Of a stretch of DNA of 47,460 nucleotides, positions 4,621 to 36,700 are shown one piece after another. The notes beneath the pieces are model-generated. The model worked only from the letters and a program-made list of their open reading frames with translations, ran no database searches and was not told the DNA's origin. Source of the DNA: Bacteroidia bacterium (GTDB taxonomy: Bacteria > Bacteroidota > Bacteroidia > Chitinophagales > UBA2359); assembly GCA_030427245.1 (NCBI GenBank), contig JAUHXA010000057.1, positions 1 to 47,460 on the forward strand, written 5' to 3'. Position 1 is the first letter of the stretch; every line of letters begins with the position of its first letter. The translations under genes and the position numbers were made by a program.

Positions 4621-5796
4621 CTATTTCAAAACTTTGATTCGCTCCACCAAATTCTCCAACATTCGCCTCGAAATAGACAGGGTGACATTTCCCGAGAGAA
4701 CAGCTTTGTTTTTTTTGAGGCGAATGGCTTTGAGGTGTTTCAAATTGAGAGCGCATCCTCTGCGGATTTCAAGAAAAAGCTTGCAGTTCAGTTTTTCCAA
4801 AAGGTTTTGAAAACCTAAAGAAATGGTATGAACTTCTCCATGGCTGGTAAACAACAAGACTTCTCTTCCGTGGACTTTGAAGTAGAGAATGTCATGGAGG
4901 TCTATTTGTAGCCATTCACCATCTTTGGGCACATAGATTTTATTGAGGTAAATATCTGAAAGAGAATTGGTTTTGATTGTTTCATTGGAGGGAGAGGGCA
5001 GTGTTTTATTGAAGGAAAATTTATTTTTCAATTGGTGGTAATCCTTTTGAATTTGCCCCAATTCTTTGGTCAGGCTTTCGATTAGGCGGTTTTTTCTGAA
5101 AAGCTTTTGTTTTTGAACTGCAATTTGGGCGGTCAATTCTGCAATTTGACGCTCGTATTTTAATAGCCCTTCTTGAATCGGGAGCGTTTCTAAGTCATCA
5201 ATAAAGGCTTGGAGTTCAGTGGTCAATTGAAACCATTCTCCATGTAACCAAAGGTGGGGAAACAAAACATGTATGGCTCGGTCGGTGGGATAAGTGGCAT
5301 TGGCTCGAACAATTTTGAGGATTTCCAACTCATCCGAACTTGCAATCTTTAAATCTACAAATCGCTGATGTACGTTTTTGGACATGCCAATTTTGACCCG
5401 ATTGAGTTCAACCGATTTGATGAAGTAAATATAGGTGATGCTTTTGGGAGGGTGAATAGAGGTGTAGCCTTGATGGAGTAGTTCCTGGATTTTATCGAAT
5501 ATCCAAACTTCAAATTCTGGCGATAACCAAGCCGCCAACTTCAAGGCTAACTTTTCATGTATCCATGTACCATTCTGATTACCACCATAAATTACTTTAA
5601 CAATTTTTTCAAGTTGCAGATTCGCAACTTGGCTTAAAGCTTTTATAAATGCTTGTGTTTGTTTACTCCGAAGAAAATGTGTGGGCTTTTTACCAAAAGC
5701 CTGAGCCATTTGAGTAGCATTAACCATTTTATTGCCATCTCCAAAATCAAAAGTGATTTTGTGCTGATTGTATTCAAAAACCTGTAACTTTGACAT
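4621..5796 (-). CDS. KilA-N / T5orf172 (GIY-YIG-like) / LytTR fusion regulator
   Basis: This 391-residue protein joins three domains. Residues 1-108 are a KilA-N DNA-binding domain (MVNATQMAQAFGKKPTHFLRS, then NGTWIHEKLALKLAAWLSPEF), typical of phage and large-virus proteins. Residues 121-200 match the T5orf172/MUG113 branch of GIY-YIG-like domains: YIYFIKS, then VKIGMSKNVHQRF, and GEWFQL at the end. Residues 205-262 are a charged predicted coiled coil. Residues 282-391 form a LytTR DNA-binding domain (IYVPKDGEWLQIDLHDILYF, HTISLGFQNLLEKL, FLEIRRGCALNLKHLKAI). With a DNA-binding domain at each end and a possible nuclease fold between, it could bridge two DNA sites. It lies 117 bp downstream of an Xre gene on the same strand. 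No integrase or other phage gene is nearby. Domain calls are strong; function is unknown. Confidence 0.88.
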   Translation of the reverse strand: MSKLQVFEYNQHKITFDFGDGNKMVNATQMAQAFGKKPTHFLRSKQTQAFIKALSQVANLQLEKIVKVIYGGNQNGTWIHEKLALKLAAWLSPEFEVWIFDKIQELLHQGYTSIHPPKSITYIYFIKSVELNRVKIGMSKNVHQRFVDLKIASSDELEILKIVRANATYPTDRAIHVLFPHLWLHGEWFQLTTELQAFIDDLETLPIQEGLLKYERQIAELTAQIAVQKQKLFRKNRLIESLTKELGQIQKDYHQLKNKFSFNKTLPSPSNETIKTNSLSDIYLNKIYVPKDGEWLQIDLHDILYFKVHGREVLLFTSHGEVHTISLGFQNLLEKLNCKLFLEIRRGCALNLKHLKAIRLKKNKAVLSGNVTLSISRRMLENLVERIKVLK

Positions 5797-5884: not shown

Positions 5885-5923
5885 ATAGAAAAGCACAAAT
5901 ATTATGTGCTTTTCTATTTTTTT
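5885..5923. terminator. Hairpin at the end of the Xre gene
   Basis: ATAGAAAAGCACA (5885-5897) pairs perfectly with TGTGCTTTTCTAT (5905-5917) around a 7-base loop. On the plus strand it runs into a T tract (5917-5923). On the minus strand it includes the last base of the Xre stop codon and is followed by a weak T-rich run. It can separate the Xre transcript from the KilA-N gene, or stop antisense reading. Confidence 0.6.
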
Positions 5924-6129
5924 ATTGACTTGACTTCAATATTAACAATCGCTGTATAATTCAATACTTCTAAAATTTTATTTAGTATTTTCTCACTGAT
6001 TCTATCACCTTTCTCTATGTTCTGTATCGTTCTGAATGACACCTCCGCCAAATCTGCCAACTCCTTCTGCGTCAGCTTCAATTTTTTTCGTTCTTGTTTG
6101 ATGAATTGCCCCAACTCTTGATAGGTCAT
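5914..6129 (-). CDS. Small Xre-family helix-turn-helix regulator
   Basis: A 71-residue single-domain HTH_3 protein. The pattern LGQFIKQERKKLKLTQKELADLAEVSFRTIQNIEKGD covers helices 1-4, with the recognition helix at VSFRTIQNIEKG. Such proteins act as dimeric repressors, often of themselves and of a neighbour. HipB-like antitoxins share this look, but no HipA-like toxin is adjacent. The downstream gene on the same strand is the KilA-N/LytTR fusion, so it may control that gene. A -7 box lies at 6155-6162. Confidence 0.88.
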   Translation of the reverse strand: MTYQELGQFIKQERKKLKLTQKELADLAEVSFRTIQNIEKGDRISEKILNKILEVLNYTAIVNIEVKSIKK

Positions 6130-7876: not shown

Positions 7877-9622
7877 ATGAATCTCGACGAACTGCGTCAA
7901 AAGATTACCGAAGGAAAGTCTGAACTCTCTCTTGAAGAAAAAAGCTACTTGCTGCGATTGATGGAAAAACCCTATGGCTTGCATTGGGAAGACAAGCCCG
8001 AAGCTGTAGAAGAAATGTTGGCAACACAACTGCCTGTTTTGCATGAAGTTCCCGACAAGTTTATTCTCGCCAACCAAACCCTACAACAAGAAGGAACGCT
8101 CAATTTTGATGCCGACAAAAACCCCGTTGCTGCCCCAAATCACCTCCTCATAGAAGGCGACAACCTACATGCCCTTGCAGTGCTGAACTATACACATACC
8201 GAAAAAGTAGATGTGGTTTACATTGACCCACCTTACAATACAGGCAACAAAGATTTTATGTACAATGACCGCTATGTCGACAAAGAAGACAGCTACCGAC
8301 ATTCTAAATGGCTCTCGTTTATGGAAAAACGCTTGCGATTGGCAAGGAATTTATTGAAGGAGACAGGAGTGATTTTTATTTCGATTGACGACAATGAGCA
8401 GGCAAATTTAAAGTTGTTGTGTGATGATATTTTTGGAGAGGAGAATTTTGTAGCTAAAATTTCTTGGCAAAAAGTATATAGCCCTCGTATGGATTCAAAA
8501 GGATTTAGTAGTGAAGTTGAATACTTAATATGCTATGCAAAATCTAATGAATTTCAAGTAAATCAGATTAAGAAAAATCAAGAAACTAAGCAGTTTAATA
8601 AATTAGATACGAAAACAGGTAAATATTACCGTAGAAGGCAATGGAGAAAAGAAGGAAGTAATTCAAAACGTTCAGATAGACCTAATTTATACTATTCTAT
8701 AAATGCGCCAGATAATACACTTATTTACCCCATTAAGCCAAATAAAAGCGAAGGGCGTTGGCGTGGAAATTTGATTTACTTCGAAGATCTTAAAAAAAAT
8801 GATTTAATTGAGTTCATAAAAGATAAACAGAATAAATGGCAAATTTATGTCAAACAATTTTTGGAAGAAGATGCCAAAAGACCTCCAACTAATCTGTGGA
8901 TGAATGATGATGTAGGAAATACTCATGAGGCAGCAGTTGAAATAAAATCTATTTTTGGAATGTCAGCCTTTAGCACCCCAAAACCTACAAAGTTAGTTAA
9001 CAGGATTTTAGAGATTGGAGGTAATGAATCTTCCCTGATCCTCGATTTCTTTGCAGGAAGCGGAACTACCCTACATGCTACGATGCAGTTGAACGAAGAA
9101 GATGGAGGGAATCGAACTTGCATTTTGGTGACGAACAACGAAAACAAGATATGCGAGGAAGTAACTTATGAGCGCAACAAAAGGGTAATACAAGGTTATA
9201 CCAACAACAAAAATCAGTGGGTATCGGGATTGAAAAACAACAATTTGCGCTATTACCGAACAGGTTTTGTGGAAACAAACATGGCGCATCCGAGCCGCAA
9301 ACAACGCTTGGAATTGGTCAGAAAAGCCACCGATATGCTCCGCATCAAAGAAGATACCTACTTCAAAGAATTGCAAGATGCGGAAATGGGCATTTTTTAC
9401 AATACCGAAAAATACATGCTGGTCATTTACGACGATGAATTTATCGAACGAGCCGTTGATTTCATTCAGGGAGTCGACAAACCTGTGAATGTGTATGTGT
9501 TTTCGGACGACCAATATACCTTTGAAGAAGATTTTGAAGAAGTGGCGGACAAAGTGACCTTGTGCGCTTTGCCCGAAGCGATTTACAAAGCCTACAAGCA
9601 GTTGATAGAGAAGTTTGTATAG
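7877..9622 (+). CDS. mod: Type III restriction-modification DNA methyltransferase (Mod)
   Basis: A 581-residue beta-class adenine-N6 methyltransferase. Motif IV is DPPYNTG (residues 117-123) and precedes motif I, LDFFAGSGTT (about 388-397), the order expected for Type III Mod proteins. The stretch between (about 190-380) is where the target-recognition domain sits in this family. The C-terminal part (about 480-581) is the Type III Mod tail, FVETNMAHPSRKQR onward. Mod writes m6A at the recognition site and is also needed by Res for cutting. The ATG at 7877 is 26 codons ahead of the EKSYLL segment and has no competing start. Res follows after 26 bp. No simple-sequence repeats that would suggest phase variation are seen near the start. 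Confidence 0.93.
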   Translation: MNLDELRQKITEGKSELSLEEKSYLLRLMEKPYGLHWEDKPEAVEEMLATQLPVLHEVPDKFILANQTLQQEGTLNFDADKNPVAAPNHLLIEGDNLHALAVLNYTHTEKVDVVYIDPPYNTGNKDFMYNDRYVDKEDSYRHSKWLSFMEKRLRLARNLLKETGVIFISIDDNEQANLKLLCDDIFGEENFVAKISWQKVYSPRMDSKGFSSEVEYLICYAKSNEFQVNQIKKNQETKQFNKLDTKTGKYYRRRQWRKEGSNSKRSDRPNLYYSINAPDNTLIYPIKPNKSEGRWRGNLIYFEDLKKNDLIEFIKDKQNKWQIYVKQFLEEDAKRPPTNLWMNDDVGNTHEAAVEIKSIFGMSAFSTPKPTKLVNRILEIGGNESSLILDFFAGSGTTLHATMQLNEEDGGNRTCILVTNNENKICEEVTYERNKRVIQGYTNNKNQWVSGLKNNNLRYYRTGFVETNMAHPSRKQRLELVRKATDMLRIKEDTYFKELQDAEMGIFYNTEKYMLVIYDDEFIERAVDFIQGVDKPVNVYVFSDDQYTFEEDFEEVADKVTLCALPEAIYKAYKQLIEKFV

Positions 9623-9648
9623 CCTTTAGCAATAGACAACAATAAAAA

Positions 9649-11961
9649 ATGATTATCCTCAAAAAATACCAACAAAAGGCAGTCGCAGAACTGCTGGAAA
9701 AAACCTACAAAATCATTCGCACCCGCTCCGAGCAGCAAGGCACCAAACTGGTGTTCAAAGCTCCAACGGGTGCGGGCAAAACGGTGGTGATGGCGGCTTT
9801 TTTGAAGCAATTGGCAGAAGATTTGGCGAGCGAACCCGATTTGCCACACCGAGAATTTGCCTATATCTGGATAGCTCCCAATCAATTGCACCTTCAATCT
9901 TACCGCAGTTTGCAGCGTTTTTTTGAACACAATCGGGTATTGCGCCCCATACAGTTCAACGGCATAGACGAGATGTGTCTGCACCACACGGATTTGTTGT
10001 TTTTGAATTGGCAGTCTATCAGCAACGAAAAAAACCTATTGGTACGAGAAAATGAGCAAGGGCGCAACTTAGATACGCTGATTTTCAATACGCTACGCAA
10101 AGGGCGCAAAATCATTGTGATTTTGGACGAAGCACACCTGTTTGGAACGAAAGGCAAGAAGGCATTGGAGGTTTTGGAGACATTGAAGGGAATGATGGAA
10201 ATAGATGTGTCTGCTACTCCGCTGCAACGCTCCAATTTTGAAGTGATTGTAGATAGACACGATGTGGTCGAAGAGGAGATGATTAAGAAAAGTGTGGTGC
10301 TGAATCCTGCGGTCAAACCCGAAGAACAAGAAGGTGATTCGCTGACGATTTACCTATTGAAACAAGCCCTCAAAAAACGAGAAGCATTGGCAGCCGCTTA
10401 TGAAGCAGCAGGCACAAACATCAATCCCTTGCTTTTGATTCAACTGCCGAGTGACACCAAAAAACAGTCGACTTTAGACAAGACGATTCGGGAAAATGTG
10501 GTGGCGCACTTGGAACACAAAGAAGCGATTGCGACTGACTACGGCAACTTGGCGATATGGCTATCGGATGGCAAAGACAAGGTGAATTTGGAGGACATCG
10601 AAAAAGAGGATAGCCCTGTCAAAGTGCTACTTTTCAAACAGGCAATTGCTTTGGGCTGGAACTGTCCTCGTGCGGCAGTTTTGTTGATTTACCGAGAAAT
10701 CAAACAACAAACTTTTACGATTCAGACAGTTGGACGCATTTTGCGAATGCCCGAACACAAACACTACGAACAGGAATTGCTGAATGTAGGGCATGTTTAC
10801 ACCGACCTAAGCCGCAATGCGATTGTGATTGTACGGGATGAAATGGATTATTTTTTAGACCATACGGCTCGCCGAAAAAGCGAGCTACCTTTGGTGAACA
10901 TCGCCTCTGATTACCTCCAACGAAAAAAAGTCCGCAACCGCCTCGGAGCAAAGTTCAAACAGGCGATGCGACACGCAATAGAAAATACTTGGAACATGAA
11001 AAACATGTTTCAATCCACCAATCACTTTGAAGAAAATCGGCAAAGGGCAAAGGAGATTTTTTTAGACCTAAACATCCAACAACTGGAATTGAAGGTGATA
11101 AAAGAAGGCGTTTTTGATGAATTGAAGGTAGGTTTTTTGGCGCAAACCGAAACAGCTACTTTTGAAGAAAACATGGTAGAAATCATGTATGCTTTTCGTC
11201 TGTATTGCCGCCGCAATTGTGGAAGTTATGCCCCTGTTGATTCGGGTGGACGCATTGAAGGGGCTTTGAAGGTGGTGTTTGAAGAATATTTCAGCGTGGA
11301 AGAACACCAAACGATGAAAGTGGTTTTGCACCCCAACAATCAGCCAGCTATGCAAACACTGATTCGAGCAGCTTTGGCAGCTTACGGCGAAATCATGGCG
11401 GCAATTCGGTCGGACGAACAAGATGTGAAGATAGTGAGGTGGGAACCTCCCGTTGCTTTGCATTATTCCCAAAACTACGAGGCATATCCGGTCAAAAAGA
11501 ATCTGTATGAACCCTTTTACATTGCCAAACGCAGCGATGGATTGTTTGCCGACAGTTCAGTGGAATTGGCATTTATTCAATATTTGGAACAACATGCAGA
11601 TGTATTGACTTGGTGGCACAAAAACACTGTGGGCGGACAAGATAGCTTTTCGGTGGTCTATGAGAACCTAAAAGGCAAAAAATCAAGTTTTTTTGTAGAT
11701 TTTATTTTACTGTTTAAAAATAATGTTATAGGTTTGTTCGATACAAAAACGCTTGCTTCTGATGCGGAGATGGTGGGCAAACAAAATGCCTTGGCAAATT
11801 ATGTTCGCCAACAAAACGAATCACCTACTGCCAGACAATTTGTTGGGGGTGTGATTGTTCCAAATGAGGCGGGTACTTGGCTGTATCCGAGTGGTGAGAT
11901 AGACAACAATTTTGACAGTTCGACCTGGCAAGTATTGGATTTGAAGCAGATGGGCAGTTGA
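9649..11961 (+). CDS. res: Type III restriction enzyme, helicase-nuclease subunit (Res)
   Basis: This is a 770-residue SF2 helicase. The Q-like start (LKKYQQKAVAELL), Walker A PTGAGKT (39-45), DEAH box (160-163) and SATP motif III (SATPLQRS) are all present. A later TVGRILRMPE stretch matches motif VI. Near the C-terminus, FFVDFILLFKNN then LFDTKT fits the PD-(D/E)xK nuclease core of Res subunits (VD...DTK). The protein is somewhat short for Res (often 850-1000). It needs Mod for DNA recognition, uses ATP to move or switch along DNA, and cuts away from the site. It lies between mod and an 88-residue gene 22 bp downstream, so one operon is likely. Confidence 0.92.
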   Translation: MIILKKYQQKAVAELLEKTYKIIRTRSEQQGTKLVFKAPTGAGKTVVMAAFLKQLAEDLASEPDLPHREFAYIWIAPNQLHLQSYRSLQRFFEHNRVLRPIQFNGIDEMCLHHTDLLFLNWQSISNEKNLLVRENEQGRNLDTLIFNTLRKGRKIIVILDEAHLFGTKGKKALEVLETLKGMMEIDVSATPLQRSNFEVIVDRHDVVEEEMIKKSVVLNPAVKPEEQEGDSLTIYLLKQALKKREALAAAYEAAGTNINPLLLIQLPSDTKKQSTLDKTIRENVVAHLEHKEAIATDYGNLAIWLSDGKDKVNLEDIEKEDSPVKVLLFKQAIALGWNCPRAAVLLIYREIKQQTFTIQTVGRILRMPEHKHYEQELLNVGHVYTDLSRNAIVIVRDEMDYFLDHTARRKSELPLVNIASDYLQRKKVRNRLGAKFKQAMRHAIENTWNMKNMFQSTNHFEENRQRAKEIFLDLNIQQLELKVIKEGVFDELKVGFLAQTETATFEENMVEIMYAFRLYCRRNCGSYAPVDSGGRIEGALKVVFEEYFSVEEHQTMKVVLHPNNQPAMQTLIRAALAAYGEIMAAIRSDEQDVKIVRWEPPVALHYSQNYEAYPVKKNLYEPFYIAKRSDGLFADSSVELAFIQYLEQHADVLTWWHKNTVGGQDSFSVVYENLKGKKSSFFVDFILLFKNNVIGLFDTKTLASDAEMVGKQNALANYVRQQNESPTARQFVGGVIVPNEAGTWLYPSGEIDNNFDSSTWQVLDLKQMGS

Positions 11962-11983
11962 TTGATTGACAAAAAGTAGAAAG

Positions 11984-12250
11984 ATGCCACGCAACAAGCA
12001 ATTATCAGATTATCAATGGAATCGAATTATTGAAGTTATGAACAAAGGATTAGACATTACTTTCGTACACTATGGTATTCGCAAAGACGATATGCAGTTG
12101 ATAGAATCGCTTGCAAATGAAGCAGAATTGGATGCGGATTGGTTGAAAGAACTGCTAAAAAACTACCACGAAAAGCGGGTGAAAGACCAAGAAATTGAAG
12201 ACAAAACCATCGAAAAAATCATCGAACAAGCGTTGAACAAACTTCAATGA
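11984..12250 (+). CDS. 88-residue unknown in the restriction operon
   Basis: The ATG at 11984 (MPRNKQLSDYQWNRII) was preferred to an in-frame TTG at 11966, because it lies 22 bp after res and follows AAAG. The protein is acidic and all-helical by eye, with a DITFVHYGIRKDDMQLIESL segment followed by a highly charged C-terminal helix (KRVKDQEIEDKTIEKIIEQA). No domain was recognised. Its place between res and the DndD-like ATPase suggests a small partner or regulator of this system. The next gene begins 80 bp later. Confidence 0.75.
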   Translation: MPRNKQLSDYQWNRIIEVMNKGLDITFVHYGIRKDDMQLIESLANEAELDADWLKELLKNYHEKRVKDQEIEDKTIEKIIEQALNKLQ

Positions 12251-12330
12251 GAACAAAACTAACTAAGCTGCATCTATCCAATAAAGAATTGTAAATCTCT
12301 CGTACTTAATACCAAACCATCTATTTGCCC

Positions 12331-14337
12331 ATGCTTATCAAAAAAATCATAGCCCGTAATTTCAAAACCTATTTGGATTTAGAATTGGACTTATCCGTAA
12401 CAGAAGACAATCCGATTATTTTGGTGGGTGGCGCAAATGGCGGGGGCAAGACGACCTTATTTGAGTCCATTTATGGTGCTTTGTATGGCTTGAAAATCAA
12501 GAATGAACGTCATTTTCAAGAAATAGTAAATGCAAACAATGCCTCCAACTACAAAACCGAAAAGATTTTCTTGGAGCTGCATTTTTCGGGTAAGGTATTG
12601 AACCAAGAACAGCGGTATGTGCTGTCTCGAACTTATGCGTTGAATCCTAAGTACAAGCCTGTTGAGTCCGTCAAGCTGAACATGAATGGAAATATTTTTA
12701 AGTATGGCACTGCAACTTCCTACAAAGACCGCATACGGGCAGAAACCGAAGTAAACAAAATCATCAAAGCAAATTTGCCAGAAGAATTGTCGCATTATTT
12801 TTTGTTTGATGCAATGGAATCAGGCAATTTGCTGAAAGAAGACCAACTGAATCGGGTGATTCGAGAGAACATCGAAAATGTGATGGGCTTTAACAAGTAT
12901 TTGCAGCTTTCAAAAGCTTCTCAAACACTCTACGAAAGTCACACTGCACAACGATTAAAGATTGAAAATGAACGAAAAGAGTATTTGAGTTTGACGGAAA
13001 AAAAGAAAAAACTCAATGACAAACTCCAAAGACTGAGCAATGACCTAAACATTGCCTACCAATATACGATTGCTAACAAAGGCTTTTATGAGGATTCAAA
13101 GGCGGGTTTGAATCAAGAAACTGCCCTCAAAACGAAAGTGGAAGAACTCGAACAGCAAACTGCGGGTACGATTGTGAGAGAAAAATCCTATAGAGAGGAA
13201 TTGGATAAATTTGTCCGAAACATGGAGCAATATGTAGGTTTGCCGAGATTGGCAAGCACCTTAAAAACCGAAATTGCTCATATTTTGAAGGTGAAATCGG
13301 AATTGGCTTTGGAGGAGAAGAACCAACTTTCTGAAGAACAGTTGTCGGATATTGCGCTGAAAATAAGTCGTTACCTCGAAACCAAACACAATTTTACGGC
13401 TGTAACGACAAGAGAATTGACCAAATATTTATTGAAGGATGTGGAAAACAGCAGTTTGACAGATCCTTACGCATTTCTGAATGATTCGGAAGTGAGGGCT
13501 TTGAGTAAATTGGTCAATGACTCTTACATCAATCCTTTTCCTCAATTGCACCAACAAAAGATAGAACTAAATATTTCGATTGCCAGCATAGAAGTGAATC
13601 AAAGGCGCATTGAGGACTACAAAAAACAAATTTCGGGTAAAGACTATTCTTTGCTGCAAGCGTATGAAGAAAAGCAACAGGAAATCAAACGATTAAACCA
13701 AGAAATAGAAGACTTAAAGCTGGACATCCAAAAGACAGAAAATCGCCTACACCGATTCGATATACAGCCTACGGATGAACCCGATCCTATTTATGAAACA
13801 CTAAAAAAGCTGCAACCTTTCTTCAATACTGCTGCCAATACACTCCTCAAAACAAAAAAGCAACAGATTGAAATGGAAATGAGGCGGGATTTGAATCAAT
13901 TGTTGATTGTTTACCAAGATGTCATAGATAGAGTAGAATTATCGGAGGATTTGAAAGACTTGACCTTCAAAATTTACCACACCAATGGGAATGAGATTTT
14001 TTTGAACCAACTCAATACGGCTTCCAAACAAGTCGTTGTGCAGTGTCTGCTAAAAGCCCTGCATCAATACGGTGACTATGCCCCTCCTGTGATGATTGAT
14101 ACGGTGATGGGCGTTTTGGATGAAGCGAGTCGTGCCGTAGTTTTGGAACACTATTTCCCCACACTTTCTCACCAAACCATTTTACTGAGTTCGGACAGCG
14201 AAATTCGCACCAACAAAGACTTGAATAAAATTGCTCCTTTTGTGGCAAAAGCTTATACTTTGAAGCGAGACAAAGTAGCGCAACAAACCAGTATTGTAGA
14301 AGGTTATTTTGATGTTCAAATAGAAGATTATATATGA
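12331..14337 (+). CDS. DndD-like SMC/ABC ATPase
   Basis: A 668-residue RecF/SbcC-type ATPase that best resembles DndD of the phosphorothioation systems. The N-terminus has IIARNFKTYLDLELDL and Walker A GGANGGGKTT (33-42). Long coiled coils run at about 190-280 and 420-480, split by less regular sequence. The C-terminal head has a signature-like segment, LNTASKQVVVQCLLKAL, a Walker B PPVMIDTVMGVLDEASR, and the D/H-loop region YFPTLSHQTILLSSDSE. The ATG at 12331 (MLIKKI) fits this family start better than the TTG at 12325. In Dnd systems DndD hydrolyses ATP and is thought to help open DNA. Here the stop codon overlaps the start of the next gene by 4 bp. DndA, DndB and DndC are not nearby. Confidence 0.85.
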   Translation: MLIKKIIARNFKTYLDLELDLSVTEDNPIILVGGANGGGKTTLFESIYGALYGLKIKNERHFQEIVNANNASNYKTEKIFLELHFSGKVLNQEQRYVLSRTYALNPKYKPVESVKLNMNGNIFKYGTATSYKDRIRAETEVNKIIKANLPEELSHYFLFDAMESGNLLKEDQLNRVIRENIENVMGFNKYLQLSKASQTLYESHTAQRLKIENERKEYLSLTEKKKKLNDKLQRLSNDLNIAYQYTIANKGFYEDSKAGLNQETALKTKVEELEQQTAGTIVREKSYREELDKFVRNMEQYVGLPRLASTLKTEIAHILKVKSELALEEKNQLSEEQLSDIALKISRYLETKHNFTAVTTRELTKYLLKDVENSSLTDPYAFLNDSEVRALSKLVNDSYINPFPQLHQQKIELNISIASIEVNQRRIEDYKKQISGKDYSLLQAYEEKQQEIKRLNQEIEDLKLDIQKTENRLHRFDIQPTDEPDPIYETLKKLQPFFNTAANTLLKTKKQQIEMEMRRDLNQLLIVYQDVIDRVELSEDLKDLTFKIYHTNGNEIFLNQLNTASKQVVVQCLLKALHQYGDYAPPVMIDTVMGVLDEASRAVVLEHYFPTLSHQTILLSSDSEIRTNKDLNKIAPFVAKAYTLKRDKVAQQTSIVEGYFDVQIEDYI

Positions 14338-15929
14338 AAAATATTAAACTAAATCACATTCGTCAGTCCGAAGAATTGGACACTTTGCACGCAGAATTGA
14401 AGGACGTTTTGGAAAAACGTATCAACTTAGACATGCAAAGCCCCGAAGGGAAACCTCTCAATATTACCAACAACTTGCTGCAACGTTTGTCTTTGTTTGC
14501 AGGTTTGAGCATCACTAAAAAACGAGAAAAATTGGTAGTTGAAGATGTTAAATTAAAGTCCAGCCATAACTTCCACGATACCGTTTTTTCTCGAAACAAT
14601 TTAGCGAATTTATGGAGTGCCTTGTTAAAATTGAGATACAACGACCTACCTATTGATTGGGAAAGCAACCCTGAAAAAAGTAGGGTAATCAATTATGAAA
14701 TGATACAGGGCGCTCAATTATTGCTTCAAGAGGACAATGTAGAAGAATGGCTGATGAGCAGTCATTTAGGTAGCAGTAAAGGGGCGACTTATGGAGCTAT
14801 TCCCCAACTGAACCTCAATATTGGCGTTTACGAAGACGAGATAGAAGCGTATTTAGACATCAATGGAAAAGACATTCCGAACACACAAATATTGATTGCG
14901 GGAACAACAGGGTCGGGTAAATCAAATTTACTAGCGGTTTTGATTCACGAGCTCCGAAAGGCTTCGGTAGAAACCTCATATCCTGTCAATTTTTTGTTGT
15001 TTGACTACAAAGGAGAATTTTCTGACCCTGCCAATTCTGCTTGGTTAAATTTGTTTGAAGTAGATAAGAGCATTATCCTCAATCCTATCGAAAAACCACT
15101 TCCTTTTTCTCCCTTCAAAGATTTTACACACAAACACCAAAACGAAATTAATCTATATGCTACTGAACTAAGTCAGGCATTGTTGGCATTGGACAGCACA
15201 AAAATCAGCGCAAAAATGTCCAACCGCTTGGCGGAAGCGGTTATCAGTGCCTACAAACTCACCAAAAAGAAGCCAGTCAATTTTCAATTGATTCTATCCG
15301 AATACAGGGAAAACTTGTCACCTAAAGAGGCACAAAATGGGGATTCGATTACTTCCGTTTTGAACCAACTTATTAGAAGTCGAATTTTTAGCGATGAAGA
15401 CAGAATGGATTTGGTAAAAAACAGTGCTATCATCAAAATGGATGCCTTTCCCAAAGATGGCGTACTGGCAAAAGCAATCGTCTATTTCACCATCTCCAAA
15501 CTCAATCTATTCTACGAAAGTCTGCCCAAACAAGCGGTTGGAAAGGATTTTGTAGAGATTCGTCACTATACCATTATTGATGAAGCCCACTATATGCTGG
15601 ATTTTGACAACAAACCTCTCCGCAATTTGATTGCAGTAGGCCGAAACAAAGGTCTTTCTATTATTTTGGCTACGCAAAATATGGACAGCTTTAAATCCAG
15701 TCATTTTGATTTTTATGCCAATGCCCAATACCCGCTGATTATGAAGCAGCAATCTATGAATGACCGAGTCATCAAGGATTTATTTGGAGTAACAGGCAAT
15801 GAGTTTCACGAAATCAAAGAAGCGATTTCTAACCTACAAAAAGGTGAATTACTTCTAAAGGATACAACTGCGGCATTGTTGGGAATGGGTAAGAAGTATA
15901 AGAAAATAAAAGTGACGCATTTGATATAA
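14334..15929 (+). CDS. HerA-like (DUF87) ATPase with a DndE-like N-terminus
   Basis: The protein has 531 residues. Residues 5-105 look like DndE: IKLNHIRQSEELDTLHAELK, then NNLLQRLSLFAGLS and FSRNNLANLWSALLKLR. That matches the small DndE protein in helix order. Residues 175-531 are a HerA/FtsK-class ATPase: Walker A GTTGSGKSNLLA (from 190), a DYKGEF segment, Walker B IIDEAH (414-419, acidic pair 416-417) and a following GRNKGLSIILATQNMDSF sensor region. HerA ATPases form hexameric rings that translocate DNA. The gene starts inside the end of the DndD-like gene (ATGA overlap), so the two are translationally coupled and likely form one complex. The HerA call is firm. The DndE call rests on pattern and on the conserved D-then-E gene order. 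Confidence 0.82.
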   Translation: MKNIKLNHIRQSEELDTLHAELKDVLEKRINLDMQSPEGKPLNITNNLLQRLSLFAGLSITKKREKLVVEDVKLKSSHNFHDTVFSRNNLANLWSALLKLRYNDLPIDWESNPEKSRVINYEMIQGAQLLLQEDNVEEWLMSSHLGSSKGATYGAIPQLNLNIGVYEDEIEAYLDINGKDIPNTQILIAGTTGSGKSNLLAVLIHELRKASVETSYPVNFLLFDYKGEFSDPANSAWLNLFEVDKSIILNPIEKPLPFSPFKDFTHKHQNEINLYATELSQALLALDSTKISAKMSNRLAEAVISAYKLTKKKPVNFQLILSEYRENLSPKEAQNGDSITSVLNQLIRSRIFSDEDRMDLVKNSAIIKMDAFPKDGVLAKAIVYFTISKLNLFYESLPKQAVGKDFVEIRHYTIIDEAHYMLDFDNKPLRNLIAVGRNKGLSIILATQNMDSFKSSHFDFYANAQYPLIMKQQSMNDRVIKDLFGVTGNEFHEIKEAISNLQKGELLLKDTTAALLGMGKKYKKIKVTHLI

Positions 15930-16058: not shown

Positions 16059-17444
16059 ATGCAACACAAAAAACCTTCATTGCGTATGAGTCAAATCCTC
16101 GACCAAGTTTCTAAAACTACGATACAACTCCTTCTAAAAGAACCCTTTTACGGACATTTTTTTACAGGTATTTTGAGAGAAGTGACTGAGCGAGTGCCAA
16201 CAGCAGCCGTTGGAATGGTGAACAATCAGATGGTCAAATTGTATATCAATGAAGATTTTTGGACAAAGAAGCTGACCACCACAGATTTTCGATATGGCGT
16301 TTTGAAACACGAAATTTTGCACATCGTTTTGAAGCATATTCTGATGGTCAAAGATTTCTCCAACCGTCAATTGTTCAACATTGCAGCAGATATTGTGGTC
16401 AATCAATACATCGAACGAAAGCAGTTAATTGAAGGAGTCATTCTATTGGAAATGTTTTCGGATTTGAAAATGGAACCCTACAAAGATGTGCGCTATTACT
16501 ACGATATTTTATATGGCGTTTGGCAAAGTTACCTTCAAAAAACTTCCACTTCAACCGTTGACAAGACTGAAAGCCGTTGTCAAGGTGTGAGTGGAGGTCA
16601 AAATAATGAAAATAACAAACAACATCAACAACCACCCAAAGCATCCACCAAGAATCAACAAGCATCTACTAATAAGCATCCACAAGATTCCCCAAGTTTG
16701 ACCCCATCCGAACAAGTCCTTCGAGACTACATGACCGAAGAAAACGACTGTTTGGGGCAGCACGATTTGTGGTGGGACGAAATCGGTAAAATGTCGGCTG
16801 CGGAAAGGAAGATTTTGGAGGGATATATCAATGATGTATTGAAAAATACGGTCAATCGGGTGAAAAATAGAAGTGCATTGCCCGCAGGTTTGCAGCAATA
16901 TATTGACCTCACATTGAAGTCTTTAGAGCCGCAAGTCAATTGGAGACGGGTTCTACGAATTTTTTCAGCAAACAGCAGCCGAACCTACCTCAAAAACACC
17001 ATTCGCAGACCTTCCAAACGCTATGGAACTACACCTGGCATTAAGGTCAAAAATCGTCAAAAACTGTTAGTCGCTATTGATACTTCTGGAAGTGTAAACA
17101 ATGAAGAATTGAAGGTTTTTTTTGGTGAACTCTATCATATTTGGCGACAAGGTGCAGAAATTTTTGTCGTAGAATGTGATGCGGCAATTCACAACAAATA
17201 TTTTTATAGAGGAACTCCTCCTAATCATATTTCTGGACGTGGAGGAACGGACTTCAATGCGCCAATCGAATACGCCAACACCGAATATCATCCCGATGCG
17301 ATTGTCTATTTTACAGATGGTTATGCACCTGTTCCGCATATCAAAAATCGTGCGCCTATGCTTTGGATGATTACTTCGGGAGGGTTGAAGGAGAAAGAAG
17401 GTGTTTGGGATGGATTGCCAGGAAGGAAAGTGAAAATGAAGTGA
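16059..17444 (+). CDS. DUF2201-type metallopeptidase with VWA domain
   Basis: A 461-residue protein in two parts. The N-terminal part carries an HEILH zinc-peptidase motif (residues 84-88) in a long helix, in the style of the DUF2201 N-terminal domain. A Gln/Ser/Asn-rich linker (about 170-220) follows. The C-terminal part is a von Willebrand A-like domain with an intact MIDAS: DTSGS (341-345), then GGTDF and FTDGY. This pairing is widely found next to a MoxR ATPase, and that is the case here (140 bp downstream). The family is thought to act as a MoxR-remodelled metal-dependent protease or adaptor; the substrate is unknown. It starts 129 bp after the HerA-like gene on the same strand. Confidence 0.88.
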   Translation: MQHKKPSLRMSQILDQVSKTTIQLLLKEPFYGHFFTGILREVTERVPTAAVGMVNNQMVKLYINEDFWTKKLTTTDFRYGVLKHEILHIVLKHILMVKDFSNRQLFNIAADIVVNQYIERKQLIEGVILLEMFSDLKMEPYKDVRYYYDILYGVWQSYLQKTSTSTVDKTESRCQGVSGGQNNENNKQHQQPPKASTKNQQASTNKHPQDSPSLTPSEQVLRDYMTEENDCLGQHDLWWDEIGKMSAAERKILEGYINDVLKNTVNRVKNRSALPAGLQQYIDLTLKSLEPQVNWRRVLRIFSANSSRTYLKNTIRRPSKRYGTTPGIKVKNRQKLLVAIDTSGSVNNEELKVFFGELYHIWRQGAEIFVVECDAAIHNKYFYRGTPPNHISGRGGTDFNAPIEYANTEYHPDAIVYFTDGYAPVPHIKNRAPMLWMITSGGLKEKEGVWDGLPGRKVKMK

Positions 17445-17491
17445 GGGTTTCGGGTTACGAGTTTCGGGTTACGGGTTACGGGTTACGGGTT
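17445..17491. repeat. Tandem heptamer repeat (ACGGGTT type)
   Basis: Directly after the stop codon of the VWA gene, the units CGGGTTA / CGAGTTT repeat about six times, with perfect copies of TTACGGG near 17468-17488. It is non-coding, although an open frame runs through it. It could slip in length and so change spacing between the VWA and MoxR genes. Confidence 0.75.
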
Positions 17492-17584
17492 CATAATATA
17501 GTGAAAACTTGGCGACACCTTTATGGTTCGCCAACGTTTGAACGGCACAAAAAATCAACAATAAAGCAATATAACAATTCAACA

Positions 17585-18688
17585 ATGAAACACAATTACA
17601 TTTATTACGGCACAAAAACCAAAGCCGACGAAGTATCTGCCTTTGTGCATCACGTTTTGGATGCCAATATTGCGGCAGAAGAAAAAGGCAAAAAGAAAAC
17701 CCCGATTTGCATTTGGGGGCGACATGGTATCGGCAAAACCGAAATCGTAGAAGCTATCGCCAAAGAAAAAGGTTGGCAGTTTTCGTATATCGCTCCAGCA
17801 CAGTTTGAAGAAATGGGTGATTTGGTGGGAATGCCTGCGGTCGAAAATGGACGAACTGTTTTTCGAGTGCCCGAATGGGTGCCAACGGGAGAAGGTCCAG
17901 GGATTTTGTTGATTGACGATGCCAATCGAGCAGACGACCGTATCTTGCGGGGAATCATGCAGTTGCTTCAAAATTTTGAATTGGTGAGCTGGAAATTACC
18001 CTCTAAGTGGCAAATCGTTTTGACGGCAAATCCCGATGGTGGCGACTATTCGGTCACTCCAATGGACGATGCGATGCTGACCCGAATGATGCACATTTCG
18101 ATGCAGTTTGATGTGAAGGAATGGGCAAAATGGGCGGAAATAAATGGCATTGACCAACGAGGTATCAATTTTGTGCTGACCTATCCCGAAATCGTAACGG
18201 GCGAACGAACTACTCCCCGAACATTGGTGCAGTTTTTTGAATCCATTTCTTCGATTGACGACTTGGCTGCAAATTTGGCTTTGGTCAAAACCTTGGCGGA
18301 TTCTTGCTTGGACGAAAATACCGTAACCGCTTTTATCACCTTCATCAACAATGATTTGGGCAAACTCATCACACCCGAACAAATCTGCAATGCCAAACAG
18401 TTTGAGCGTGAGGTCGTGGCGTATTTGAAGCGAGTAGCGGTGAAAAAAACGATTCGAGTCGACATTTTGGCAACGATTTGCACCCGTATGGTTAACTATC
18501 TCACCATCAACCAAATCAAACCCAATAAAACGCAAATGGATAACATCAAGGAATTTGTCAAGATTGACTTCTTACCGAATGACATCCGATTGACGATGGC
18601 GCAAGATTTGGTGAGTTCCAAAAATCGCTATTTGAAGCCGATTATGGCAGATAGAGAGATTGGGAAAATGCTGTTGGGGAGGATGTAG
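17585..18688 (+). CDS. MoxR-type AAA+ ATPase
   Basis: A 367-residue AAA+ protein. Walker A is GRHGIGKT (45-52) and Walker B is ILLIDDANRA (D111, D112). The sensor-1 segment (WQIVLTANPDGG) is followed by MDDAMLTRMMHI, which carries the arginine finger. The small C-terminal lid lies at about 200-365. The ATG at 17585 was chosen because the longer frame runs back through the heptamer repeat and the VWA gene. MoxR ATPases remodel a VWA partner; the DUF2201/VWA protein just upstream is the obvious one. Confidence 0.9.
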   Translation: MKHNYIYYGTKTKADEVSAFVHHVLDANIAAEEKGKKKTPICIWGRHGIGKTEIVEAIAKEKGWQFSYIAPAQFEEMGDLVGMPAVENGRTVFRVPEWVPTGEGPGILLIDDANRADDRILRGIMQLLQNFELVSWKLPSKWQIVLTANPDGGDYSVTPMDDAMLTRMMHISMQFDVKEWAKWAEINGIDQRGINFVLTYPEIVTGERTTPRTLVQFFESISSIDDLAANLALVKTLADSCLDENTVTAFITFINNDLGKLITPEQICNAKQFEREVVAYLKRVAVKKTIRVDILATICTRMVNYLTINQIKPNKTQMDNIKEFVKIDFLPNDIRLTMAQDLVSSKNRYLKPIMADREIGKMLLGRM

Positions 18689-30797: not shown

Positions 30798-33700
30798 TTA
30801 CTCCTTTACCACCTTCACCGTTTTCCTTTCCTCACCATTCGCCAGTACCAACAAATAAGTACCTGTTGGCAAAGCCGAAACATTCACCGAATAGTCATTC
30901 AAGCCAGATTTCGCAGTCAAAGATTGAACAATTAATTCACGTCCCACGATGTCGTACAGTTGAAGATTTACCGAACCACTTTGAGGGCTGTTCCATTGGA
31001 TTTGCAGCACATCTCTGGTCGGAATAGGATAAACTTGTACAATCTCGAAAGAGCGTTCTTTTTCACCCCGAACCAATGAAATCACATTTGAAGCTGTTTT
31101 AGTGCCATCAAAATCCGTTTGGTCAAGGCGGTAATAACTTCGACCATTCGGCGCATTTCGATCCAAAAAGTCGTAAACGTTGGTTTCGGAAGTTGTGCCA
31201 TTGCCATCCACCTTAGCGATTTCTTCAAAGTCAATGCCATCCGTAGAACGCAGGAGTGTAAAGTAATCGTTGTTGGTTTCGGAAGCCGTAACCCATTGAA
31301 GGGCATTGCCGTCTTTCTGAACTTCGCCATTGAAGGTCAAGAGTTCTACGCCTACGGTCACACAACTGACCACCTTATTGAACGGACCAAATTGACAACC
31401 GTTTGCATCTGTTATGACCAATGAGTAAGGATTGCCCACAGGTACTTCCCCAATCGGAAGCAATGGAAAATCGTCAGGAGTGATTTCGTTATTGAAGTAG
31501 TACTCCCCTAAGTCAATCGTAAAAGGAGGAGTGCCGCCTTCAATCGCAATCACCAACTGATAGAAAGTAGAAAGTGGGCCGTTTGGACAAATTTCAGTTA
31601 CCGAAATGTCAAAGCCCGCACAGTCGCCTTCGTCGTACATCCCCGCATCCATATTCGACAATGTTGCGCCTTCTGCAATGGAGAAAATTGGAGTTGTTCC
31701 GCCTACATTGATGTCGCTGTCAAAAGTGTCGTCCAAGCCTATGTCCTGTGGCGAAGCGGCAAAACCATCGGGGATTTCAAACGCCAAAAAGTAGTCGCCC
31801 GCAGGCACATCTACAAACTCGTATTGACCATTTGTATCGGATACATCGGTGGCTATTTCGCCCAAAGAAGTATGAACAAGCGTGACCTTGATGCCTTGCA
31901 AACCTACTACTTTTTGAAGGTCGTCTTGCAGTCCGTTTTTGTTCAAGTCGTTGAACACCATGTCGCCAATTGTTGCCAAAAGGCTTGGACAGTTTTTCGT
32001 GCCTGTTAAAGTCACACTGCAAGTAGCATCGGTTTCATCGGTAATCGTAATGGAATAGTCCCCTTGCGGCAATGGTCCCATCAAAATGCTGCCACTCGAT
32101 TGATTGGTCAGCGGAGGATTTACTCCATCGTCTAAGGTATAGGTGCTGCTACCCGTCAATTCGACCTCTACCAAATAGCTGCCATTGATGGTGCAAATCG
32201 TTGTCGGAATCGCTACCAAATCACAACCACCTGGCGTACAGTCTCTCGAACCATTGAAGGTAAGCGAACAGTTGGGCGTTGTTTCGCTGCTGATGGTGAT
32301 GGCATAGTCGCCATTCGCAAAGTCAGTTAAGGTGTAAGAACCCGCAGATTGCCCTGTCAAGGTTGTGCTTTGGTTATCAGAAATAGTGAAAGTACCTGTT
32401 CCTTCAAATTCAAAAGTGACCGTATAACTATTTGCACTTGTGCAGTTTACAGCTACATCGGTTACATCAATATCACATGGCAAGACCTCCGTACAGTCTT
32501 TGATGCCATTGAGCGTAAGGGTACAGGTTGGGTCGGTTTCGCTGCTGATAAGCACCGAATAGCTGCCATTGAAGATAGGCCCAAGGGTAACTTCGCCACC
32601 TGTTTGCCCTGTAATCGGTGTGTTTACGCCATCGTTGAGGGTATAAGTATCGCCTTCATTGCCACTAAAGTTCACAACAAGTTCATACCTGCTGTCATCC
32701 AAACAGTTGACTTGAACGGTAGCGGTTAAATCGCAAGCAGTAGTGACCGCACAATTGCGGATACCCGAAGCACTTTTTTTGCAGTCCTCATTGTTGTCGT
32801 TCACCACTTCAATATTGTAGGAAATGCCACTGGCAAAAGGGCCGACTTGCAGTTCTCCTGCCGTTACGCCTGTTTGAACGACCTGACCATTGTTGTAAAC
32901 GGTGTAGGTGTCCGAACCACTGACATTGACCGAAATCATATAGTTTTTGTCGTCTGTACAAGCCGTTGAAGCGGTCAAAGTCAAGTCACAAGGTAAGACG
33001 ATGTCCACGCAGTTTTCTGTTCCTGAAAGTGTTTGTTGACATTCAGCATTGAAGGCATTGGTGACAGTGAAATTGTAGGTATTCAAGGCCGCAGGGCCGA
33101 AGGTGTACACACCCGCCGAAACGCCTGATAGATTACCCAAATTGCTGTTGACATTGAAGCTGCCTGTTCCGCCAATTGTCAGGTCAATGGTATAGGTGTC
33201 TCCTTCAATGCAACTGATTTCTGCGCTTGTGGTCAAATCACAAATCACCGCATCGCTACAGTCTGCAAAACCATTCAAGCCACCAAAACAGGTGAAATTG
33301 TCTTCGCTTTGGACAAAAATGTTGTAGAAGAAACCGTTGGGGTAAGGTCCCAAAATCACTTCCCCTGCCTCAACATCGAAGAGTGTAGTGTTAAAACCAT
33401 CTTCAATCGTATAAGTGCCTGTACCTACGAGATCCAAAATGACATTGAAGCCACTGCCATCCGTTTGACACTCTGTAGTCGCTCCCAATTGAAGATCACA
33501 TGGAGGAATTTCTTCCGAAATGCAGCTTCTGATTCCCAAGAAATCTTGTGTGCAGAAGGGGCGGTTTTCGTCTTGAATGAAAATGTAGTATTCATCGCCG
33601 AAAATAGGCCCTGCTTCAATGATGCCCGCTTCTTGGTTTTCGAGATTCAACACAATAGGTCCGCCCAGTTCTTGGAATACGGTGATTTCGTATTCAGAAG

Positions 33701-36700
33701 TACCTTCCAAATTGATGATAACATTGAAACTCATGCTATCGGGATTACAAACCGTTGTTACACCTGCGTTGATGTTGCAGCCGTTGGGGTTGTTGCAGTT
33801 TCGAGAACCGATGAAGTCTACATAACAAGTTGGGTTGTTTTGATCGACAATCAAGAGGTCATAGACTCCATTGTCGAAAGGTCCTACGGTAACGGTTCCA
33901 GGTTCTACATCGCCCAGAATCAATTCATTGTCGGGTAGTTCTACATACAGTCCTTCGTAAATGTCGTAGGTGCTGTTGCCGTCAATGACCATGGTGACTT
34001 CGTATTCCTGATTGTTGATACAGTTGATGTCCAATTGTACGGTCACATTGCAGGGTGGGAAGTCTGGCTGACAGTCGGTAGTTCCGAATAAGGATAGATT
34101 GCAGATGTCGTTGTTTTCTTTAAAAATCAAGACATTGTAGAATGTGTCAAAGAAAGGCCCAACGGTAATTGTGCCTGCGGTTTGCCCTTCAAGTGGGATT
34201 CCAATGAAGGTCTCTATGAAGTACGTACCCGAACCTTCGAGTTCAATAACCAAATTGTAGCCACCTGAATTATCGTCGAGGCAGACTACTTCAACTGTTG
34301 CGCCCAAATTACAACTTGGAACAGCACTACACGCAAATACGCCCGAAAACTGCTGTGTACAAAGGGCATTGTTTTCATCTATAATGACAATATCGTAGGT
34401 ATCATTGTTGGAAAAACCTTCAATGGTTATGGGAAGTGCGGGAAAGCCCGATGCCACTGTTTCGCCATTGCTGATGATTTGATAAGTGCTTGTGCCTGTG
34501 ATGTCAAGTTGGATACTATAAGCGGTATTGTCACTGTTGCAAACGGTTTCAAATTCTACACCCAGATCACAAACTGGAGGAGGCTCGCAGAAAAAGCCGC
34601 CTGTGAAGACTTGCGAACAAAGTGGATTGCCGTCATTGACAATGCTGATAGAATAACTTCCATTCTCAAATGGGCCAATGGTAAAGGAGCCCTCTGTTAC
34701 GCCTTCCAATACTACTTCTCCACCATTGCTGATGGTATAGGTGTCAGAACCCGTAAGGCTGACTTCAATGGTGTAAGAACCTTCACCCTCCACACAGGTT
34801 GCGCCAATGTTGGCGTTGAGGTTACATTCAGGATTGAAGTCGCAATCGGCAGTCCCGAAAATGTCTTGGAAACATTGGGGATTTTGGTTGTCGTTCACAT
34901 TGAAGAAGAAAAAGAAATCTTCTGGATAGGGACCTAAAACATAAGTGCCTGCTGGTACATTGATCAGGGGCTCGGGGTTGAAGTCGCCAAATATATCGTA
35001 AGTCGAAGTTCCTTCAACGGTGATTTCGATATTGAAGGTAAAATCATTGTTGCAAATCACATCATAATCCACCGTAAAATCGCAGTCGAAATCGCAGTTT
35101 CGACTGATAAAAGTGGATTGAAAACATTCAAAGATATTGTTGATTTCGTCTTGTATGAAGACCGAATAACCAAAGAAATTGCCATCGTTGTCGGGGAAAG
35201 GTCCAAAGGTATAAGTGCCAGCAGTCAATCCACTTTCTTCTATAAAAACGTTGAGTTCCCCATCAATTTGAAGATAGTAAGTTGAACTTCCTTCAATAGT
35301 GACGGTGATTTCAAAGTTGTCGTCATCTACGCAATTCGTGACAATGGAAGCTTCTAAGTCACATTCGGTAATAGGGTCGCAGCCTGTGTTTCCATTGAAG
35401 TTGAGGTAACATTCTTCGAAAATAATTTCGCTTTGATTGATGGATACGTTGTAAAAATCACCAGACAGTCCTTCAAATGTGTAGGTGCCTGCCTCAATTC
35501 CAAAAAGCAAAGTGTCTAAGGTTCCAAAACCTAAATTAATAAACATATCAAAAAATCCTTCTCCTTCAAAGGTAACAATCATGTCAAAACCGCCATCGTC
35601 CAAACATTCAACTTCGACATTTCCGCTCAAAATACAGTCTGCATTACAAACGCCTGCACCCGATAAGCTTTGGCTGCAATTGAAGTCCGCTTCGTCTTGT
35701 ACAAAGATATTGTAGAAATCATCGAACTCTACGAATAAATCTTGTAAGACATACGTCCCCGCAGTTGCTCCAAAAATAGCTTGTCCAAAAAATCCATAAT
35801 TGATGGTATAAGTGCTGCTTCCTTCAATGGTAATTGTCACATCTAATACACCGTCAGGGCCACAATTCGCCTCATCCAACGTCACAAACAAATCACAAGG
35901 CGCATCACAAAACTTCGTTCCCGAAATGGTTTGGAAGCAGAAAGAATTGGCTTCGTTGCTGACAGTGATTTCGTAATCACCCTGAACGCCTGAAAAAGGA
36001 CCAACCACCACATCTCCTTGAGTCACACCAGTCAGAGGAGGATTTATACCATCCGAAACGGTGTAAGTGCTGTTGCCTGCAATGCTTACCACAACTTCAA
36101 ACTCACCTGAATCTTCAATACAATTCACAAAAGATTCGACTTGCAGTTCACAATTGAAGGTACAGTCATCCGAGCCATTGATTTCGATAGAACAAGTGTT
36201 GTCTTGTTCACTTACAATACTGATTGTGTAAGGACCATTTGGAATCGGTCCTATCATAAGTGGGCCTTCTGATTGATTGGTCAATGGTGGATTGACACCA
36301 TCTTCAATGGTGAAAGTCCCTGTTCCTGTCAGTTCAATTTCCACAACATATCCTGAATTGCCCGCACAAACTGTGGTGGATGTCACTGCTACATCACAAG
36401 GAGTCTCCACTGTGCAATCATGACTGCCCATAATTGGTAACTGGCAGTCTGGATCATTTTCATTGGTAATTTGTACCGCATAAGCTTCCTCATCGAAAGG
36501 GCCTATGGTGATTTCTCCCGCCGTTTGTCCTGTCAAAACGGTATTGTTGTATTCTATCGTAAACGTACCTGTACCTCCCAAGGTAAGCACCAGATTGTAG
36601 CTTTCTTCGTCAATACATTCGGGAACAGCGACTATGGAAGGATCACAAATCACATCGGGTGTACAGTCCAATGCGCCTAAGTAGTTTTGATTGCAGGTTG

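Follow-up and report, generated by a model that had tools for sequence, protein, structure and literature searches.

This report concerns a five-gene operon in a 47,460-nucleotide stretch of DNA from a Bacteroidia bacterium (contig JAUHXA010000057.1; this whole stretch is called the window), in which the methyltransferase (Mod) and helicase-nuclease (Res) genes of a type III restriction-modification (R-M) system are followed by genes for a small protein (SP), a DndD-like ATPase and a HerA-like motor bearing a DndE-like head (DndE::HerA). We have little doubt that the five genes form a real functional unit and, judging from the encoded proteins, its role is very likely antiviral or anti-plasmid defence. 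On balance we favour the reading that this is a type III R-M system with a dedicated clamp-and-translocase module, SP-DndD-DndE::HerA, that would act downstream of Mod-Res.

A preliminary description, made from the letters alone, had placed the five genes on one strand with gaps of 26, 22 and 80 bp and a 4-bp overlap (between the DndD-like and HerA genes), and this is exactly what the open reading frame (ORF) coordinates and the Pfam, PADLOC and NCBIfam assignments give (Table 1). The window Mod matched Pfam N6_N4_Mtase (E 1.1e-40) and the PADLOC type III methyltransferase (E 1.1e-99), and comparison of its profile with structures retrieved EcoP15I Mod (4zcf, E 1e-67), Mod 6k0w (E 1e-83) and Mbo45V (7dsu, E 1.8e-74). 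It has the motifs of a beta-class N6-adenine methyltransferase of type III systems, DPPY at residue 117 and FAGSG (FxGxG) at residue 392, motifs IV and I enclosing the target-recognition region; D117-Y120 was kept in 32/33 aligned Mods, the remaining row being gapped at that point. The product of the reaction is presumably N6-methyladenine. Res, directly after mod, is a superfamily 2 (SF2) helicase (Pfam ResIII, E 4.9e-16) with a C-terminal PD-(D/E)XK motif, again as in type III systems; the PADLOC type III nuclease match was weak (57.6 bits) and a sequence search from Res reached no solved type III Res structure. Walker A K44, D160/E161/H163 and the nuclease residues D684, D698 and K700 were invariant in 34/34 aligned rows, as read from alignment columns, regular expressions for the nuclease having missed some rows (e.g. 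DF..DTK, 35/44).

Table 1. The five genes of the operon, with positions in the window (aa, amino acids).
Gene	Position	Strand	Product
Mod	7877..9622	+	581 aa; beta-class N6-adenine methyltransferase, type III kind
Res	9649..11961	+	770 aa; SF2 helicase with C-terminal PD-(D/E)XK-type nuclease motif
SP	11984..12250	+	from ATG at 11984; 88 aa; Pfam family Sp-DndD
DndD-like	12331..14337	+	from ATG at 12331; 668 aa; DndD-clade ABC ATPase, coiled-coil insert
DndE::HerA fusion	14334..15929	+	531 aa; predicted DndE-fold head (residues 1 to ~145), then HerA/FtsK motor

The window SP matched Sp-DndD (PF20306) at E about 2.4e-4 to 2.7e-4 (21.4 bits, under the gathering score of 27.2), and 38 of 39 aligned homologues matched the family at E <= 0.01 (best 6.4e-12). 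It is 88 residues long against about 72 in most relatives, which are 42-61% identical to it, and K21, D24, F27, G31, D36 and W53 are invariant in the 39 rows. The DndD-like ATPase is homologous to DndD along its full length (PADLOC DndD, E 5.3e-60; NCBIfam DndD TIGR03185, E 4.4e-52 and 177.4 bits, under the equivalog cut-off of 245.85). All 56 sequences carried the Walker A, the LNTASKQ-type signature and the IDT Walker B pattern, and none of the 56 a CxC or CxxC motif. The HerA central domain was recognised at E 2.1e-12, with Walker A and IDEAH invariant in 42/42 rows.

A model of the whole 531-residue DndE::HerA protein (predicted local distance difference test, pLDDT, 83.8) placed the motor closest to the C-domain of DndH (7es4; Z 36.5, root-mean-square deviation (rmsd) 2.5, 351 aligned). 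The whole-protein comparison rows left the head untested, and the head was modelled separately (first 147 residues, pLDDT 87.5). This model matched E. coli DndE (4lrv) at Z 11.1 (rmsd 2.3, 105 aligned of 106), followed by two other DndE entries and then by TraY-region chains of the F relaxosome (Z 7.3), it being the published view that TraY has the DndE fold; the next unrelated structure scored Z 5.8. Foldseek of the head against DndE gave modest E-values (best 8.2e-3) at a probability of 1.00. Sequence profiles were negative: Pfam DndE matched 0/14 HerA heads, and profile comparison (hhalign) gave a probability of 3.9% with five canonical DndE proteins and 0.5% with the HerA heads of DndC-type loci, heads which do match canonical DndE (E 1.6e-13). 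The predicted fold thus bears out the DndE-like head proposed in the preliminary description, as two ribbon-helix-helix units.

The distribution of the operon was followed from DndD, using a query alignment (A1) of the window DndD and those of two loci in which Mod-Res is missing. The scan covered one genome per species (84,980 species) and required an exact short peptide, so that its yield of 64 loci is an undercount; 55 were from Bacteroidota, 5 from Ignavibacteriota, 1 each from Verrucomicrobiota and Pseudomonadota, and 2 were unplaced. Res lay upstream in 48/52 loci having at least 2.5 kb of upstream DNA and Mod in 35/39 having at least 5 kb, so the two ATPases are not found mostly away from mod/res, the arrangement that the preliminary description had held to speak against it. 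Where the flank was long enough, SP was present in 56/60 and HerA in 55/58 loci. The full five-gene set recurred in the same order on one strand (42 of the 64 loci found with DndD alone, permitting genes split into two ORFs in L022, L054, L062, L068 and L071). Fifteen of the other 22 loci end at a contig or locus edge and seven genuinely depart (L035, L043, L044, L046, L047, L061, L065); in L050 a Res search of the genome located a full Res 8.3 kb upstream, past an insertion. Three loci (L028, L029, L036) have two Mod genes ahead of one Res and the module, the second Mod being split in L036; perhaps two specificities serve one machine here.

Inserted genes recurred between Mod and Res or between Res and SP, one cluster in 7 loci (representative Abi_2) and another in 4 (representative RhuM), and Fic, SocA-like and Schlafen AlbA_2 genes were seen as single-case insertions in the operon. 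This drift of accessory Abi_2, RhuM, Fic and SocA-kind genes in and out would suit a loose assembly of defence-island neighbours with no functional coupling; against that, the order of the five genes is fixed, the gaps between them are very small and they co-diverge tightly in many families, which makes such an assembly highly improbable.

The dependence between the two halves of the operon was examined from Res. A Res profile run on four overlapping genome draws (395, 395, 349 and 344) gave, with the window's genome excluded, 22 loci in 20 genomes. SP-DndD-HerA was present in five of them (L106, L107, L110, L126, L127; L107 ends inside DndD) and absent in 17. Five of these solo loci (L097, L128, L129, L130, L135) are on contigs that end within ~250 bp of Res, and a genome-wide DndD search of their genomes found none, with three module genomes positive as controls; one solo genome (G639) is 56% complete. 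With 17/22 related loci devoid of the module, a Mod-Res pair of this kind does not need it, and the dependence looks one-sided. In L131 (4548-6122) a solo Mod-Res is overlapped and followed by an AAA_15 (OLD-like) ATPase gene, perhaps a different ATPase add-on.

Five of the loci that depart from the five-gene order (L044, L046, L047, L061, L065) form a single Kapaibacteria/Ignavibacteria lineage in the DndD tree. Here a DndD of this clade sits amid housekeeping genes, and Mod, Res and SP are all missing; HerA is complete only in L044, and L044, L046 and L061 encode a similar predicted membrane protein just upstream of DndD or nearby. The DndD of this lineage has possibly been domesticated. Its setting would suit a repair role, as would the Rad50-like nature of DndD, and the clamp and pump could then be a safety or repair device that shields the host from Res, by resolving stalled Mod-Res or processing nicks at hemimethylated forks, instead of attacking the invader. 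That kin Mod-Res persist without the module, so that the module is not essential, has been listed in favour of such a device; the same 17 loci indicate, however, that Res is not generally toxic without it, and we rate this explanation as distinctly unlikely.

To order gain and loss, a Res tree of 49 rows was built by a careful method. It contained a 41-row clade with 100/100 support, made of all 36 module rows and five solo rows, outside which lay seven solo rows and one of unknown state. This tree needs five changes of module state, which with the root outside amount to one gain and four losses. A quicker tree of the whole set (60 rows) needed three, with L128 of unknown state and L112 absent. 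Of those 60 rows the 49-row tree drops 12, namely the near-copies L016, L067, L069, L031, L058, L020, L022, L032 and L075, the long L133 and L136, and L135 of unknown state; it adds the fragment L112 and has L128 relabelled solo, and the broken L129 was never placed. Loss is directly visible at two loci. In L112 (1502-1597), in a genome without the module, what follows Res is the SP reading frame up to codon 32 (87.5% identical to L033) and then unrelated DNA, and the DNA of L109 diverges from that of L056 about ten bases past the Res stop. In the DndD tree, 57 rows of this kind formed one clade (Shimodaira-Hasegawa-like approximate likelihood ratio test 100), separate from canonical DndD and from the DndD of dndC-DndE::HerA loci (L079, L081, L082, L083); a CxC branch of great length (7.85) served as the root, so the deep branching of this tree is unreliable. 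The loci that lack Mod-Res lie nested within the clade and so look derived. The best reading of the trees would be that the module was acquired once by a type III system and then lost several times.

The two halves of the operon also differ in how they evolve. In a mirror-distance test over 32 loci, which left out L016 and L067, protein-distance correlations were 0.91 for DndD-HerA, 0.88 for SP-DndD and 0.87 for SP-HerA, compared with 0.61 for Mod-Res and 0.34-0.55 for Mod or Res against SP, DndD or HerA. Thus SP, DndD and HerA co-diverge, and Res and the Mod specificity region are swapped beneath them. L048 and L075 are 99% identical in SP, 98% in DndD and 97% in HerA, and only 47% in Res. 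L030 and L031 are 97% identical in SP, 99% in DndD, 94% in HerA and 98% in Res, with Mod near 100% at both ends and 12-38% mid-protein.

The borders of shared DNA fit this pattern. Among pairs with at least 80% DNA identity at HerA, 29/30 cease to match within 200 bp of the HerA stop and 24/30 within 5 bp; these pairs are loci of different genera or species from few groups, and the only pair to behave otherwise consists of identical copies on a single contig. The left border falls at the mod start (L030/L031, L066/L069) or just ahead of SP (L048/L075), and between Tenacibaculum L030 and Algibacter L031 the common DNA opens with the mod start codon and goes no further than the HerA stop. These edges and identity patterns mark the operon as a cassette whose right half is constant and whose left half can be exchanged. 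In a phage-labelled faecal scaffold (L143, MT835906.1), which looks like a mobilizable element rather than a phage, the five-gene cassette stands beside relaxase, MobC-like and integrase genes, indicating that it moves. Pontibacter arcticus carries two 21,995-base copies, 100% identical and ~74 kb apart on one contig, each with the whole cassette (L014 and L067), either a recent duplication or an assembly artefact. Among viral contigs, 63 stretches fitted the search pattern and none of them was a relative. In plasmid records DndD gave matches only below 26% identity over most of its length, HerA no match over 80% of its length, and Res seven records with at most 26% identity over 94%.

From these observations we propose a mechanism. 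Mod would methylate host copies of its site, and Mod and Res would recognise unmodified invader DNA, as in type III systems generally. SP would couple the Mod-Res complex to a machine formed by DndD, a Rad50-like clamp, and DndE::HerA, in which a hexameric DNA pump carries a DNA-binding head. Once loaded on DNA singled out in this way, the machine would travel along it, and either Res cleavage would be extended to wholesale destruction or replication would be blocked. Because Mod-Res can work alone, the module is best viewed as an addition to it, and because the module is constant whereas the specificity region varies, recognition of one particular site by the module is unlikely. Most simply, Mod-Res would designate the target DNA; the module therefore probably acts downstream. 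That the effector step consists of clamping and translocation is a more tentative proposition, with slightly less than an even chance. In canonical Dnd complexes, according to the available part of PMC12193691, DndC and DndE dock on the DndD coiled coils and surround DNA, DndC binding the coiled coils and DndE binding coiled coil 2. SP occupies the gene position held by dndC, before dndD, in canonical loci, and DndE is here fused to the pump, which is why SP is proposed as an adaptor; a search of DndC-type loci with the SP profile gave no match.

The module could also be an independent second arm resembling PbeABCD, with SP, DndD and DndE::HerA sensing missing modification and halting invader replication, Res serving as enhancer and Mod as mark-maker. 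Its gene order equals PbeA-B-C-D, both in L084 (where unnamed ORFs were read by position) and in the available part of the published account, which reports that pbeB, pbeC and pbeD are each required and pbeA partly (PMC6459918), and four module loci lack adjacent Mod-Res. Yet in L030/L031 the Mod specificity region has been exchanged alongside a module that is still 94-99% identical, which makes it hard to see how the module itself could recognise a mark tied to one site. The nuclease is of PD-(D/E)XK-like and not HKD type, and the ATPase lacks CxC; we consider this arm unlikely. Since PbeABCD is reported to halt virus replication without visible cleavage (PMC6459918), the end effect of the system described here could be either block or degradation.

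Several points weigh against a module that acts through Mod-Res. The DndE assignment of the head comes from a predicted fold and is invisible to sequence profiles, and the co-divergence correlations are uncorrected for species relatedness. SP showed no detectable similarity to the one PbeB compared, the sequences being short. Moreover, the module exists without Mod-Res and so may have a role of its own: in genomes whose completeness was not given, a Res search found no match for L043, L061 and L065 and weak partial matches only for L044 and L035.

It is possible, at rather less than even chances, that these loci represent a distinct methylation-gated defence class. Mod-Res would then deliver a verdict on self or non-self, in a form that can be exchanged, and the verdict would be carried out by an invariant SP-DndD-DndE::HerA machine taken over a single time from Dnd-type stock. 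If so, one pump would serve many recognition sites, as an adenine-methylation counterpart of PbeABCD. The roles of DndD, DndE and the HerA motor in Dnd-type defence are hard to disentangle from sulfur chemistry; here the same core accompanies a simple methyltransferase-nuclease pair, and nature also provides losses of the core and swaps of Mod or Res, so that its contribution can be tested by simple gene deletions. The ATP-dependent cleavage of type III systems needs two unmethylated head-to-head sites; if the preferred reading is true, processive DNA handling can be added to a type III system and might bypass that need.

Elsewhere in the window, an HTH (helix-turn-helix) gene (5914-6129) lies next to the cassette, and a 391-residue protein encoded at 4621-5796 (-) combines KilA-N, T5orf172/MUG113 and LytTR domains. 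A DUF2201 VWA-like and MoxR-like AAA gene pair (16059-18688, +) is directly downstream of the cassette. A single ORF at 30798-43883 (-) encodes 4361 residues, with SprB-repeat, CHAT, adenylation-sulfotransferase and tryptophan-halogenase proteins near it.

Finally, the cassette was compared with known systems. The pairing of DndD with DndE::HerA has been published before, and Pfam already has a name for the small protein (Sp-DndD). No description of a type III Mod-Res linked to this module was found in the literature searched, supplements and Krishnan 2020 (the cited source of the fusion) being outside that search. According to the available part of Rakesh, Aravind and Krishnan 2024 (PMC10853773), some of the Dnd systems have HerA/FtsK fused to DndE next to a DndD-related ATPase, with a HerA domain nearest that of DndH, as here. 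That account places the pair in phosphorothioate (PT)-modification systems, whereas here it follows a type III Mod-Res and SP, with no dndC, and its DndD falls in a separate clade. In our loci, too, the fusion adjoins dndC and dndD in PT-type L079, L081 and L082. The recruitment of DndD/DndE-type machinery to Mod-Res, as the preliminary description saw it, stands, be it as extra restriction effectors or as a translocase for Res, between which the sequence does not discriminate; the idea that the pair was assembled here does not stand.

These PT-type loci raise the question of a Dnd phosphorothioation system with DndC encoded elsewhere and Mod-Res as an unrelated neighbour. As the preliminary description had it, the phosphorothioation enzymes are absent: dndA, dndB and dndC references had no match in the available DNA of the 64 loci, and DndE, PbeA, DptF, DptG, DGQHR and PT-associated methylase references were the best match of no ORF in them (one reference each for DptF and DptG). 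Nor were homologues that could complete a normal system found elsewhere in the window's genome (100% complete): the DndC profile gave at best 26.6 bits against a cut-off of 290.4, in a run where no control genome passed the cut-off, and a DndC protein query and a DndB profile gave nothing. As a check on sensitivity, the same reference DndC protein scores 352-499 bits in the Bacteroidota dnd loci L079, L080 and L082, and 391 in L081. Shared DNA blocks, furthermore, start at the mod start codon. An independent dnd system in trans was rejected on the genome searches, and a Dnd identity for the cassette is exceedingly improbable.

PbeABCD and CxC-DndE systems share with the cassette the order helicase-nuclease, small protein, ABC ATPase, DndE, and base methylases can replace PT in them; in the available parts of the accounts, cytosine methylases accompany CxC-DndE systems (PMC10853773) and methylase genes lie near solitary PbeAC (PMC6459918). 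They differ in having an HKD nuclease and a CxC ATPase in place of a PD-(D/E)XK Res, a DndD-clade ATPase, an N6-adenine-type Mod and the HerA fusion; Pfam sees only ResIII in Res and no HKD nuclease fused to its SF2 helicase. The Pbe small protein is described as rapidly evolving, whereas SP is well conserved. DndFGH (DptFGH) resembles the cassette in its motor, the DndH C-domain being closest in fold, and the cassette lacks DndF, DndG and the rest of DndH. With type III R-M systems of the EcoP15I kind it shares Mod followed by Res, intact motifs and the exchange of Mod specificity while Res stays constant, differing from them in a Res of 770 residues and in three additional, co-diverging genes.

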